A stretch of DNA of 42,331 nucleotides from Chloroflexota bacterium (GTDB lineage: Bacteria > Chloroflexota > Dehalococcoidia > JACVQG01 > JAHKAY01): NCBI GenBank assembly GCA_018825785.1, contig JAHKAY010000006.1, positions 1 to 42,331 of the forward strand, written 5' to 3'. The position numbers and the translations under genes were made by a program. The notes below the pieces were generated by a model, which ran no database searches, was not told the DNA's origin, and was given only the letters and a program-made list of their open reading frames with translations. Shown here in pieces: positions 25,063-28,983 of the stretch; positions within the stretch are counted from its first letter, which is position 1, and every line of letters begins with the position of its first letter.

Positions 25063-26384
25063 CAGGTCCGTTTCCCGGCCTTTTCCTTATGGGACCTGGC
25101 TTTCAAAATCAGCTTCAGGGGGGTGATGTATCCGAAGGCCTGACGCAGGCTGTTCTCCAGATAGCGGAGGTAGGTTGCCGGCAGGGCCGGCCGGCTCACC
25201 TCAAGGAGGAAGGTGGGGGGATTGACCCCGGTCTGCGCCACCGAAAGGAGGCGGAAATCACGCCTGCCTCTCAGGGGGGGAGGGCGGAAGGCCACCGCGT
25301 CATTGACTACCTTCGCTAACTGGGCGGGGGGAAGCTGCCGCAGACGGTCCTGATATACCCGGCGGGCGATGAGCAGGACCTGCTCTATACCCCAGCCCCG
25401 CAGGGCGGAGATAAAGAGCAAAGGGGCGTAGGGCATGAAGACCAGCCGCTCCCTCACCATCTCCTGGTAGGCCAGGGGGTCGGGCTTCTCCACCAGGTCC
25501 CATTTGTTTATCAATATTACAAGACCCTTACAACTCTCGTGCGCATAGGAGACGATGTGAAGGTCCTGGGCCATAACGCCCTGGTGGGCCTCAACCAGGA
25601 GGAGGACCACATCGGAGCGGGCAATGGCCCTGAGGGCCCGGAGGACGCCGAAGTGCTCTATCCCCGCCTCTACCTTTGCCCTCTTCCTTACGCCGGCGGT
25701 ATCAATGAGCAGGATGGGCTGGCCCTCAAACTGGAAGGGGGTATCCAGGGCGTCCCTGGTGGTCCCAGGCAACTCTGACACCACCGCCCTCTCCTGGCCC
25801 AGGATGCGGTTGAGGAGGAGGGACTTGCCCACATTAGGCCTGCCCACTATCGCCACCTTCATCCCCGGGGCCTCCTCCTCTTTCCCCGCCGGGAGGAGGA
25901 GGAGGAGGCTGTCCAGCAGGTCGCCTGTGCCTTTTCCGTGGTAGGCACTGATGGGGTTGGGGTCCCCCAGGCCCAGCCGGTAGAACTCCGGGGCCATCAT
26001 CTGCTGGCGAGGACTATCGGCCTTGTTCACCACCAGCAGAACGGGCTTCTTCTGCACTCTCAGCCTTTCGGCGATTTCCTCATCAGAGGGGGTGAGGCCC
26101 CCCTTGGCATCCACCAGGAAAAGGATGACATCGGCCTCGGCCAGGGCCATCTCCACCTGCTGTTTCACCTGCTGGAGCAAGCTCGTGGAGGGGTGGACCT
26201 CCAGGCCTCCAGTGTCCACGATGGTAAACTCCCGCTCCTGCCAGGAGACATCCGAATATATGCGGTCCCGGGTGGTGCCGGGAATATCTTCCACAATGGC
26301 CAGTGGCCTTCCCACCAGGCGGTTAAAAAGGGTGGACTTGCCCACATTGGGCCTGCCCACTATCGCCACGATGGGCAGGCTCAT
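25062..26384 (-). CDS. der: Ribosome assembly GTPase Der (EngA)
   Basis: The 440-aa protein carries two consecutive GTPase domains, the hallmark of Der. Domain 1 has GRPNVGKSTLFN (10-21), IPGTTRD, DTGG and NKAD. Domain 2 has GRPNVGKSLLLN, LPGTTRD, DTAGVRKR and NKWDLV, followed by the KH-like domain (QAFGYITPLKLILKARSHKE). Der assists 50S ribosome maturation. It overlaps argF by 4 nt and plsY by 1 nt. Length is normal. Confidence 0.97.
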   Translation of the reverse strand: MSLPIVAIVGRPNVGKSTLFNRLVGRPLAIVEDIPGTTRDRIYSDVSWQEREFTIVDTGGLEVHPSTSLLQQVKQQVEMALAEADVILFLVDAKGGLTPSDEEIAERLRVQKKPVLLVVNKADSPRQQMMAPEFYRLGLGDPNPISAYHGKGTGDLLDSLLLLLPAGKEEEAPGMKVAIVGRPNVGKSLLLNRILGQERAVVSELPGTTRDALDTPFQFEGQPILLIDTAGVRKRAKVEAGIEHFGVLRALRAIARSDVVLLLVEAHQGVMAQDLHIVSYAHESCKGLVILINKWDLVEKPDPLAYQEMVRERLVFMPYAPLLFISALRGWGIEQVLLIARRVYQDRLRQLPPAQLAKVVNDAVAFRPPPLRGRRDFRLLSVAQTGVNPPTFLLEVSRPALPATYLRYLENSLRQAFGYITPLKLILKARSHKEKAGKRT

Positions 26385-27292
26385 CCCAGGACCTCGGCGA
26401 GGAGGGCCCGCTGGAGATGGAGACGGTTTTCTGCCTGGTCAAAGACCACCGACTGGGGGTGCTCCAGGAGGCCAGGGGAGACTTCCTCACCGCGGTGGGC
26501 AGGGAGGGGGTGCATGAAGAGGGCACCCTTTCCCGCCCGCGCCAGGAGGCCCTCGTTGACCTGATAGCCCGAAAAGGCCTTCCTCCTGGCCTCCGCCTGG
26601 GTCTCCTGCCCCATGCTGGTCCAGACATCTGTATAGACCACCTCCACCCCCGCCACCGCCTCTTGAGGCCCCTCATAAAAGGATAATCTGGCGCCCCCTA
26701 CCCGGGCAAGGGCCTGGGCCTTCTCCACCACTTGCGGCCCGGGGCCGTAGCCCTGGGGATGGGCCATGTGGAAGTCCACCCCCATGAGGGCCGAGGCCAG
26801 CATCAGGCTGTGGCAGACATTGTTGCCGTCCCCAATATAGGCCAGAGCCACGCCCTCGAGCCGGCCCTTCTTCTCCTTTATGGTCAGGAGGTCGGCCAGG
26901 GCCTGGCAGGGGTGCTCCTCATCGGTGAGGGCATTGATGATGGGGATGGCGGCCCACCGGGCCAGGAGGGCCAGGTCGGCCTGGGCGAAGGTGCGGACTA
27001 CAATGGCCTGGACATAGCGGCCCAGGGTGCGGGCCACATCGGGGATGGCCTCCCGCTTCCCCAGCCCTACCTCCGCCTGGGAGAGGTAGATGGCCTTCCC
27101 CCCCAGCTGGGATACCGCCACTTCAAAGCTTACCCGGGTGCGGAGGGAGGGCTTCTCAAAGAGGAGGGCTACAGCCTTGCCCTGGAGCCTGGGGGTGATG
27201 GGGCCCCGCTTCATCTCCCCGGCCACCTGGAGAAGGCGCTCTATTTCCGCAGCCGTGAGGTCGGCCACGGAGAGGAGGCTCTTCCCCTTCAC
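26381..27292 (-). CDS. argF: Ornithine carbamoyltransferase
   Basis: The 303-aa protein has the carbamoyl-phosphate site KPSLRTRVSFE (48-57), FAQADL, HPCQALADLLT (127-137), DGNNVCHSLM and the ornithine-binding DVWTSMGQE (222-230). The C-terminal HPLPAHRGEEV replaces the HCLP of many members, so the Cys is Pro; this variant is known in related bacterial OTCs, so activity is expected. The enzyme makes citrulline from ornithine and carbamoyl phosphate in arginine synthesis. No other arg gene is seen here. It overlaps greA and der by 4 nt each, which suggests translational coupling. Confidence 0.95.
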   Translation of the reverse strand: MKGKSLLSVADLTAAEIERLLQVAGEMKRGPITPRLQGKAVALLFEKPSLRTRVSFEVAVSQLGGKAIYLSQAEVGLGKREAIPDVARTLGRYVQAIVVRTFAQADLALLARWAAIPIINALTDEEHPCQALADLLTIKEKKGRLEGVALAYIGDGNNVCHSLMLASALMGVDFHMAHPQGYGPGPQVVEKAQALARVGGARLSFYEGPQEAVAGVEVVYTDVWTSMGQETQAEARRKAFSGYQVNEGLLARAGKGALFMHPLPAHRGEEVSPGLLEHPQSVVFDQAENRLHLQRALLAEVLG

Positions 27293-28068
27293 GCCTCAAC
27301 CTTCTCTATCCGGTAGCGCCGGACCCCCGCCGGGGTGGTCACCTCCACCACCTCCCCTTCGTGCTTGCCCAGGACCCCCCGCCCGATGGGGGAGGCTACC
27401 GATAGTTTTCCTCTCTCCAGGTCCGCCTCCCTGGGGTCCACCAGGACATAAGAGACGCTGGCCCCCGAGGCCAGCTCCATCAGGGTAACCCGGTGGCCGG
27501 GGGCCAGCCCCCGTCCCTCCTCCCTCCTGGCCGTTGCCCTGGCCAGCACCCCCTCCAGCTCCGCAATACGGGATGATACCTTGGCCATCTGTTCCCGGGC
27601 CGCATCCAGGGGGGCGTTCTCCCGGAAGTCCTTGTCCTCCCGGGCCCGCTTTACCTCCCCCACCAGTCTGAGCCTCTCCGCCTGGAGGGCTTCCAGGTCC
27701 TGCTTCAAGTGCTGTCTCCCCTCCTCGGTGAGGAGGCTGGGCTGGGGGGTCTCCCCGGCCGGGGACACCCGGGCCGGGGTCTTCTTGGCCCGGAGGTGGA
27801 CGGAGAGGTTGGTGGGGGTGAGCCCCTCCTTCTTGGCGAAAGTCAGGAAGGCACGTACCGGCTCCAGCTTCTTAATGTCCACCCCCTGGTCAGCTAACCT
27901 TTCGGCGTAGTTGCCTGTTTCCGGAGGGGTGAGGGCGGAAAGGGGCCTGTCCCAGCCATACCAGCGGACGAAGCGGTAGACCTCCTGCTGGGAAGACTCC
28001 TTTTCCTGGGGGGGAAGGCTGGCCAGGTAGCGGACGGCGGCCTCGCCCAGGGAAAGGTTCGCTTTCAT
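27289..28068 (-). CDS. greA: Transcript cleavage factor GreA with recombinase-like N-terminal domain
   Basis: The 259-aa protein is 100 residues longer than standard GreA. Residues 112-259 are GreA: a coiled coil (TEEGRQHLKQDLEALQAERL) with tip DFRENAPLDAAREQ, keeping Asp147 and Glu150 in place of the usual DLSEN, and the C-terminal FKBP-like domain (SPIGRGVLGKHEGEVVEV). GreA rescues backtracked RNA polymerase. Residues 1-95 (LGEAAVRYLASLPPQEKESS, then YRFVRWYGWDRPLSALTPPE and VRAFLTFAKKEGLTPTNLSV) look like the SAM-like core-binding domain of tyrosine recombinases. That match is by eye. The domain may bind DNA or polymerase. It heads a six-gene operon whose promoter leaves almost no leader. 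Confidence 0.9.
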   Translation of the reverse strand: MKANLSLGEAAVRYLASLPPQEKESSQQEVYRFVRWYGWDRPLSALTPPETGNYAERLADQGVDIKKLEPVRAFLTFAKKEGLTPTNLSVHLRAKKTPARVSPAGETPQPSLLTEEGRQHLKQDLEALQAERLRLVGEVKRAREDKDFRENAPLDAAREQMAKVSSRIAELEGVLARATARREEGRGLAPGHRVTLMELASGASVSYVLVDPREADLERGKLSVASPIGRGVLGKHEGEVVEVTTPAGVRRYRIEKVEA

Positions 28069-28161: not shown

Positions 28162-28983
28162 ATGGGGACCCTTTATCTGGTGGCCACGCCCATAGGCAAC
28201 CTGGAGGATATCACCCTGCGGGCCATGCGCGTGCTGAAGGAGGTGGGGCTGGTGGCCGCCGAGGACACCCGCACCGCCCGCATCCTCTTCCGCAAATACG
28301 GGATAGAGACGCCCCTTATCAGCTACCACGACTACAACAAGAAGGCCAGGCTCCCCCGCCTGCTGGAGGTGCTGCAAGGGAAGGATGTGGCCCTCATCTC
28401 CGAGGCGGGGATGCCGGGGATAAGCGACCCTGGCTATGAGCTGGTGGTTGCCTGTGTAGAACGGGGGATAAAAGTCGTGCCGGTCCCCGGCGCCTCCGCC
28501 ATCCTCACCGCCCTGGCGGCCTCGGGCCTCCCCACCAATTCCTTCCTCTACCTGGGCTTTCTGCCTCGCAAGAAGGGGGAAAGACGGCGGCTCCTGGAGG
28601 CCCTGGCCCCTTTGCCCCATACCCTGGTCTTCCTGGAGGCCCCCCACCGCCTATCCAAGGGCCTGGAGGACCTGCGGGAAGTGCTGGGGGAGAGGCGGAT
28701 GGCGGTGGGGCGGGAGCTGACCAAGCTCCACGAGGAGTTCTTCCGGGGGACTGTCAGCCAGGCCCTGGAGCATTTCTCCCAGCCCCGGGGGGAGTTCACC
28801 CTGATTGTTGAGGGGGCACTCAAGGGAAAAAAGGAACTGGGGCCGGAAGTGGAAGCGGAACTCCTGAGGCTGCGCCAGGAGGGGCTGAGGGCAAAGGAGG
28901 CGGTGGCCCGGCTGGCTTCAGAGACAGGCCTCCCCCGCCGGGAGCTGTACCGGGCCTGGCTTGGGGCAAAAAGGGCCCCGTGA
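28162..28983 (+). CDS. rsmI: 16S rRNA 2'-O-methyltransferase RsmI
   Basis: The 273-aa protein opens with the tetrapyrrole-methylase-like signature GTLYLVATPIGNLEDITLRA and has VAAEDTRTARIL, ISYHDYNK, LISEAGMPGISDPGYELV, VPVPGASAILTALAASGL and FLYLGFLPRKKGERR in order, all RsmI hallmarks. It methylates the 2'-O of C1402 in 16S rRNA. The start codon lies 8 nt after a TATAAT, so the mRNA is likely leaderless. The stop overlaps the next gene's GTG by 4 nt. Confidence 0.95.
   Translation: MGTLYLVATPIGNLEDITLRAMRVLKEVGLVAAEDTRTARILFRKYGIETPLISYHDYNKKARLPRLLEVLQGKDVALISEAGMPGISDPGYELVVACVERGIKVVPVPGASAILTALAASGLPTNSFLYLGFLPRKKGERRRLLEALAPLPHTLVFLEAPHRLSKGLEDLREVLGERRMAVGRELTKLHEEFFRGTVSQALEHFSQPRGEFTLIVEGALKGKKELGPEVEAELLRLRQEGLRAKEAVARLASETGLPRRELYRAWLGAKRAP

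Follow-up and report, generated by a model that had tools for sequence, protein, structure and literature searches.

A Gre-family factor with a domesticated tyrosine-recombinase core-binding domain in Dehalococcoidia and other Chloroflexota

The window, by which we mean the whole stretch of DNA analyzed here (42,331 nucleotides of contig JAHKAY010000006.1 from a Chloroflexota bacterium of the class Dehalococcoidia; assembly GCA_018825785.1), contains a gene whose product joins a Gre-like protein to an additional N-terminal domain. This raises the question of whether that domain is related to the core-binding (CB) domain of tyrosine recombinases and, if so, what it would contribute to a factor of the RNA polymerase (RNAP) channel. 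Two facts alter the meaning of the fusion, namely, that it is the rule in the class and that the ordinary GreA paralog of the lineage lacks the catalytic tip. If the reading developed below is true, the protein would rescue polymerase while anchored on the DNA side by a domain borrowed from a recombination enzyme, and it would be the working cleavage form in most of the class, including single-contig genomes with no other ordinary-sized Gre protein. It would then have to be asked whether a DNA anchor boosts the rescue of stalled polymerase, whether it can substitute for the classical docking domain, and what role is played by a Gre paralog that has lost its catalytic acids.

Organization of the gene and its product

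The fusion gene, its parts, and its neighbors in the window are as follows.

27289..28068, minus strand: CB-GreA fusion gene, with an ATG start, 259 aa plus a stop, and no internal stop
27781..28056, minus strand (aa 5 to 96): tyrosine-recombinase-like CB (SAM-like) domain of four helices
27736..27780, minus strand (aa 97 to 111): linker, with pLDDT of <50 at aa 97 to 106
27535..27735, minus strand (aa 112 to 178): GreA N-terminal coiled coil (PF03449)
27619..27630, minus strand (aa 147 to 150): acidic tip, D-F-R-E, in which D147 corresponds to Escherichia coli D41 and E150 to E44
27295..27501, minus strand (aa 190 to 258): GreA C-terminal domain (CTD), FKBP-like, the RNAP-docking part
26381..27292, minus strand: downstream gene with a 4-base overlap with the fusion gene, by its appearance presumably ornithine carbamoyltransferase (argF)
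28162..28983, plus strand: divergent upstream neighbor outside the fusion system, by its appearance taken to be an RsmI-type 16S rRNA methyltransferase

The GreA part of the window protein is recognized by the Pfam models GreA_GreB_N (53.2 bits against a cutoff of 24.5; aa 112 to 178) and GreA_GreB (70.2 bits against 26.9; aa 190 to 258), and its predicted structure matches that of GreA (PDB code 1grj). The tip sequence is D-K-D-F-R-E-N, with both acidic residues present. We aligned 49 sequences, namely, the window protein and those from 48 of 58 loci, omitting an incomplete locus (L036), the window itself (L039), two duplicates (L040 and L041), and the near copies L027, L029 to L032, and L035. 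Across this alignment, S223, P227, and G229 of the CTD are invariant and S226 is conserved in at least 90% of the sequences. An annotation slip or a chance open reading frame (ORF) is ruled out by the conservation of the protein over its full length in these sequences. The window protein misses the NCBIfam cutoffs for GreA (NF001261, 114.2 against 167 bits; TIGR01462, 109.3 against 139 bits), and we therefore regard it as a Gre-family factor in a clade of its own rather than as a GreA equivalog. A recombinase catalytic domain with its Arg-His-Arg-Tyr set found no Pfam match in the 259 aa, the remainder of the protein being Gre.

At the tip of the window protein (ENAPLDAA; window positions 27598 to 27621), a Leu replaces the Tyr that usually follows ENAE in GreA, and most of the class members that we read likewise have ENAPL instead of ENAEY. 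The Tyr at this position of GreA is said, in a portion of PMC3132773, to bind backtracked RNA.

A second, GreA-only product from an internal start is not a general feature, as a Met in the linker region occurs in 18 of the 49 sequences and is absent from the window protein. A GreA of Dehalococcoides mccartyi CBDB1, a candidate counterpart of the fusion, was detected and acetylated, more so in the stationary phase, with acetyl-K17 reported for cbdbA743, according to excerpts of PMC7918482. Residue 17 of the full-length fusion in two presumed Dehalococcoides genomes (L098) is Asn and does not match this report; acetyl-K17 would fit a start at the internal Met of L098, and the annotated start may thus be short.

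Identity of the N-terminal domain

Scans with single sequences decide nothing on the identity of the domain, because unrelated families match as well. Residues 1 to 105 of the window protein gave no match in a single-sequence Pfam search; when the 49 relatives were scanned singly, Phage_int_SAM_1, _4, and _5 were weakly matched by 3, 4, and 1 members, respectively (best E = 0.0024), and the unrelated families RsbRD_N (5 members) and ENOX1 (0.0014) did at least as well in the same scans. A profile of the domain built from all 49 sequences recovered a phage integrase N-terminal domain (PDB code 3nrw; E = 4.1e-5) as the sole significant match in an hmmsearch against the PDB, the next entry having an E value of 0.39. 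A profile-profile comparison with hhalign matched the fusion CB to the CB domains of XerC/D at 96.4% probability over 91 columns, with three control pairings at ≤0.3%. The Xer set comprised XerC/D-like CB domains from the same class, for which 17 of 24 loci were used after omission of 2 wrong ORFs and 5 that could not be trimmed by motif.

AlphaFold2 predicted a four-helix domain, with block pLDDT values of 90 to 97 (aa 11 to 90 of the full model) and a mean of 85.0 for the domain alone; the full model has a pTM of 0.50 and gives the CB domain no fixed placement. In a VIA-align search with the CB model, 22 of the top 26 entries are titled integrases, recombinases, or parts thereof, the best being 3nrw (Z = 12.7; 2.2 Å over 94 residues), with lambda Int at 11.5. 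The other four are 2kob (whose title names no function), phage SroF, and YopR twice, and the earliest clearly unrelated entry stands at a Z of 6.6, Z scores below about 13 being indecisive for helical bundles. The Foldseek E values for the CB model are weak by themselves (best, 0.02). That a common helical bundle was misread as a CB domain is ruled out by the sequence profiles, the structural Z scores being insufficient alone.

The claim of the earlier note that an integrase-like core-binding domain stands before a complete GreA is thus borne out by profile, hhalign, and fold matches. Structure prediction of the N-terminal segment, which could have ended without any match, led instead to integrase and recombinase folds. 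Judged by these profiles and models, the N-terminal domain is a true tyrosine-recombinase core-binding domain.

Phyletic distribution and gene neighborhoods

The fusion was present in 38 of the 41 relatives searched. Among 195 genomes of the class, each at least 90% complete, the CB domain was detected at E ≤ 1e-3 in 182 and continues into the coiled coil and the GreA CTD in 180 (including G038, whose contig ends just after the coil); the remaining two, G072 and G084, are without the CTD. Genus g9 lacks the fusion in all three of its genomes. Outside the class, the fusion occurs in at least 23 of 254 phylum genomes (taken from a draw of 300), distributed over 12 families, among the matches listed, which extend to an E value of ~8e-42. 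This occurrence across the class and the phylum rules out a lone fusion in one genome. Three class genomes of 90 to 95% completeness (G053, G067, and G101) showed no Gre match, including in a repeat search with the Gre C-terminal family.

In a phylogenetic tree computed with the tip columns omitted, the GreA parts belonging to fused proteins group in a single clade (SH-aLRT, 99), in a quick search over 148 of 215 rows that left many forks unresolved. The clade has 51 rows, of which 50 are fused proteins (including a second copy in G041) and one is the CB-less protein of G144 (see below).

We found no conserved operon partner in 73 loci, where no cluster of neighbors exceeded 13 loci; these are the loci in which mechanical ORF picking recovered the fusion ORF from 90 stretches. 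The argF gene lies directly after the fusion gene in 8 of the 73, and this pairing is local. Such freely changing gene neighbors fit a stand-alone housekeeping gene.

The acidic tip in fused and unfused Gre proteins

The role of the tip residues D41 and E44 of E. coli is described in passages of PMC7527559, and tip function is also treated in PMC3132773, from parts of which we take it that in the Gre factor of Mycobacterium tuberculosis (MtbGre) the D43N mutation abolishes cleavage and E46R remains active, making the Asp essential. Both residues are kept in 80 of the 81 fused sequences of the class that we read: D and E were found in all 62 distinct sequences and in all 18 further genomes (some of which may overlap with the 62). 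Outside the class, they were found in 18 of 18. The one exception is the second fused copy of G041 (L281, G041:C103:5456-6247), with the tip SGMPLDDAPS and hence P and D at these positions, which sits inside the fused clade of the tree; the first copy in that genome (L301) has an intact D/E tip. Fusion, therefore, does not guarantee catalysis.

The unfused paralogs of the class have lost this signature: none of 67 copies combines an acid with E, and D41 is kept in only 2. These copies come from 64 genomes, and the label "unfused" was given to 19 of them after rereading with upstream DNA and to the others from the single CB match of the genome or from longer flanks; in one of the 64 genomes (G074), the place of the fusion is taken by a protein that is of the fused type and has no CB. 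The window genome is typical in that its own unfused GreA (L062, G000:C39:25216-25686) reads GGTDHNAEY, with both tip acids lost. The loss of the Asp throughout the class is the stronger sign, since D43N is the inactive and E46R the active mutant in the MtbGre results cited above in part. From its sequence, the unfused class paralog should be a channel binder that does not stimulate cleavage.

Where genomes outside the class bear the fusion, their unfused copies are mostly D/D (D41, E44D); 3 of 31 distinct sequences combine an acid with E, and these three resemble divergent paralogs. In fusion-free genomes, this combination is present in 14 of 15. Unfused copies outside the class may accordingly retain activity. 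Where both kinds were read in the same genome, 28 of 31 genomes follow the tip rule, the exceptions being G254, G268, and G282.

The fused protein is the sole Gre match in 54 of the 195 class genomes, among the matches listed. Upon a renewed search with PF01272, it was the only ordinary-sized Gre in 17 of 17 genomes, 12 of them single-contig, nearly all of the 17 having been picked as single-match cases rather than at random. Taken together with the tip pattern, this suggests that the fused form, not the ordinary GreA, is probably the working cleavage factor of the lineage. Two of the 17 additionally showed GreA C-terminal stretches, at G109:C1:1647718-1647933 and G172:C1:1076496-1076708 within open frames of 1,604 and 1,319 aa, respectively, the match in G172 falling below the Pfam cutoff; these long frames may encode TPR-GreA/B-C-PIN conflict proteins of the kind described in sections of PMC8195603.

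Natural variants lacking the CB domain or the CTD

In family f49, all four intact members (G072, G084, G468, and G470; loci L139/L246, L141/L247, L244, and L250) encode a CB domain and a coiled coil with a D/E tip, followed by a stop and no GreA CTD; a fifth member, G466, in which the contig ends within the gene, was not counted. No remnant of a CTD was present in the translated surroundings of two members, and no CTD match was obtained in ORFs of at least 60 aa around the other two. As the CTD is the polymerase-binding part of GreA (PMC7527559 and PMC3132773, both in excerpt), the CB domain is the obvious remaining docking part in f49, and the variant suggests a docking capacity of CB itself. 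The G470 genome, which is 58% complete, also has a separate Gre (L240, G470:C12:967-1350) with a D/E tip and a CTD, whose frame begins inside the coil; this copy could be broken, stray, or real, and the CTD-less protein of G470 may not be alone.

The reverse situation is seen in G144 and G074, in which the tip and CTD are kept and CB is absent, indicating that CB is not indispensable. The G074 protein (L276, G074:C2) shows the DKDVRENAPLEAARE tip seen in fused proteins and begins with a Lys-rich tail; it is outside the tree, and its kinship was judged from the DKDVRENAPLEAARE tip. From these few lineages, we infer that either anchor, CB or CTD, would suffice. A different arrangement occurs in G152 (L133, G152:C21), where a 138-aa frame encodes a coil with a DGDLKEN tip after a CxxC segment and has no CTD; the segment looks zinc-ribbon-like by eye and is possibly another anchor of a Gre coil.

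Proposed function and alternatives

From what was computed, namely, the domain homology, class-wide conservation, single clade, tip pattern, and CTD-less variant, we infer a cleavage activity, DNA as the ligand, and a placement for CB. Our explanation as a whole, to which we assign a probability of roughly 55%, is that the fusion is the principal Gre factor of the lineage and that its CB domain is a second docking module on nucleic acid. The coiled coil would enter the RNAP secondary channel, D147 and E150 would complete the catalytic site at which backtracked RNA is cut, and the CTD would dock on the polymerase, each as in GreA. Domesticated from a tyrosine recombinase or integrase, the N-terminal domain would serve as the second docking module on a tether; together with the basic linker, it would grip nucleic acid next to the secondary channel, most probably DNA in duplex form, and thereby keep the factor on stalled complexes for longer. 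In known structures, GreA has its N terminus outside the channel, where the coiled coil begins at its base, and the tether between CB and the GreA part measures 16 to 25 mostly basic residues, so that CB would stay at the polymerase surface.

The CB positions that are basic (K, R, or H) in most of the 49 aligned sequences are R32 (86%), K67 (94%), R72 (100%), K79 (92%), H91 (90%), and R93 (100%), with K96 also largely basic; K67 and R72 have conserved basic counterparts in helix D of Xer recombinases. The segment from aa 90 to 111 has a mean net charge of +4.2 (range, −2 to +8) and is basic in most relatives. The conserved basic positions, the basic linker, and the natural variant without a CTD point toward DNA docking near stalled polymerase, which is plausible on these sequence features.

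The same features bear on a possible but rather doubtful alternative, in which the protein is the same cleavage factor and CB binds a protein (a surface of RNAP, some other factor, or its partner CB in a dimer), not DNA. The CB domains of recombinases also make protein-protein contacts, the CTD-less family f49 needs some form of docking, and the net charge of CB varies widely among relatives, from −11 to +10. However, positions 67, 72, 79, and 93 are basic in 92 to 100% of the 49 sequences, two of them in register with the Xer helix D residues, and both the linker and the tail of the G074 protein are basic, all of which speaks against this alternative.

It is unlikely that CB is an autoinhibitory or regulatory lid acting on the entry of the coiled coil or on competition with the tip-less unfused paralog. 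Such a lid would suit the presence of that paralog in the 64 class genomes sampled, which is reminiscent of competitors of the Gfh1/Rv3788 type (PMC4598747, in part), and the higher acetylation of D. mccartyi GreA in the stationary phase noted above (PMC7918482, in part). However, CB is still kept in the 54 of 195 genomes without a second Gre match among the matches listed, and the CTD-less forms would have no docking if CB were merely a lid.

That CB is a functionless passive relic, kept by descent of the fusion, would accord with its absence from G144 and G074 and with its faster evolution than that of the GreA part (pairwise identities average 33% for CB against 49% for the coil and 43% for the CTD), but we consider this very improbable given the conservation of its fold, hydrophobic core, and basic positions across the class, the persistence of the fused form in 12 families beyond the class, and the retention of CB by f49 without a CTD.

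Returning to the second docking module on nucleic acid, we tentatively propose an evolutionary course for it, at slightly less than even odds: at an early stage in much of Chloroflexota, a Gre factor would have acquired the CB domain of an integrase, the fusion would have taken over cleavage from ordinary GreA, the paralog would have lost its acids and turned into a channel binder that does not cleave, and CB, as an attachment on the DNA side, would be able to replace the standard docking domain.

Relationship to known systems

The fusion shares with GreA and GreB (PF03449 plus PF01272; PDB code 1grj) the coiled coil, the D/E tip, and the FKBP-like CTD, and it differs from them in its N-terminal CB domain, its own clade, its scores below the NCBIfam GreA cutoffs, and its mostly ENAPL tip. 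Its CB domain shares the fold, the sequence profile, and the two basic residues of helix D with tyrosine recombinases (XerC/D, lambda Int, and 3nrw; PF02899 and PF13495); unlike them, the protein has no catalytic domain and does not retain the T..aYr.DL stretch of XerC/D, as seen by eye in the hhalign alignment. We regard CB-GreA as a member of the Gre factors that carries a domesticated domain of recombinase origin. We found no description of a CB-GreA fusion among the open-access papers listed.

There is a precedent for the reuse of such a domain outside recombination in the plant ALOG proteins, in which, according to parts of PMC3537659, a recombinase CB domain became a DNA binder in transcription; ALOG proteins are regulators with a zinc-ribbon insert, whereas the partner in our fusion is a polymerase-channel factor. 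Gre modules joined to other domains are likewise on record in NCBIfam PRK14720 and PRK06330 and in the TPR-GreA/B-C-PIN conflict proteins (PMC8195603, as excerpted). Their partners are different, however, and they are far larger, and the window protein scores far below the PRK14720 and PRK06330 cutoffs. Finally, the unfused paralog of the lineage resembles Gfh1 of Thermus and Rv3788 of M. tuberculosis as a protein of Gre fold from which no stimulation of cleavage is expected; according to passages of PMC4598747 and PMC3132773, those two proteins keep the acidic tip residues, whereas the D/E pair is present in 0 of the 67 paralogs read here.
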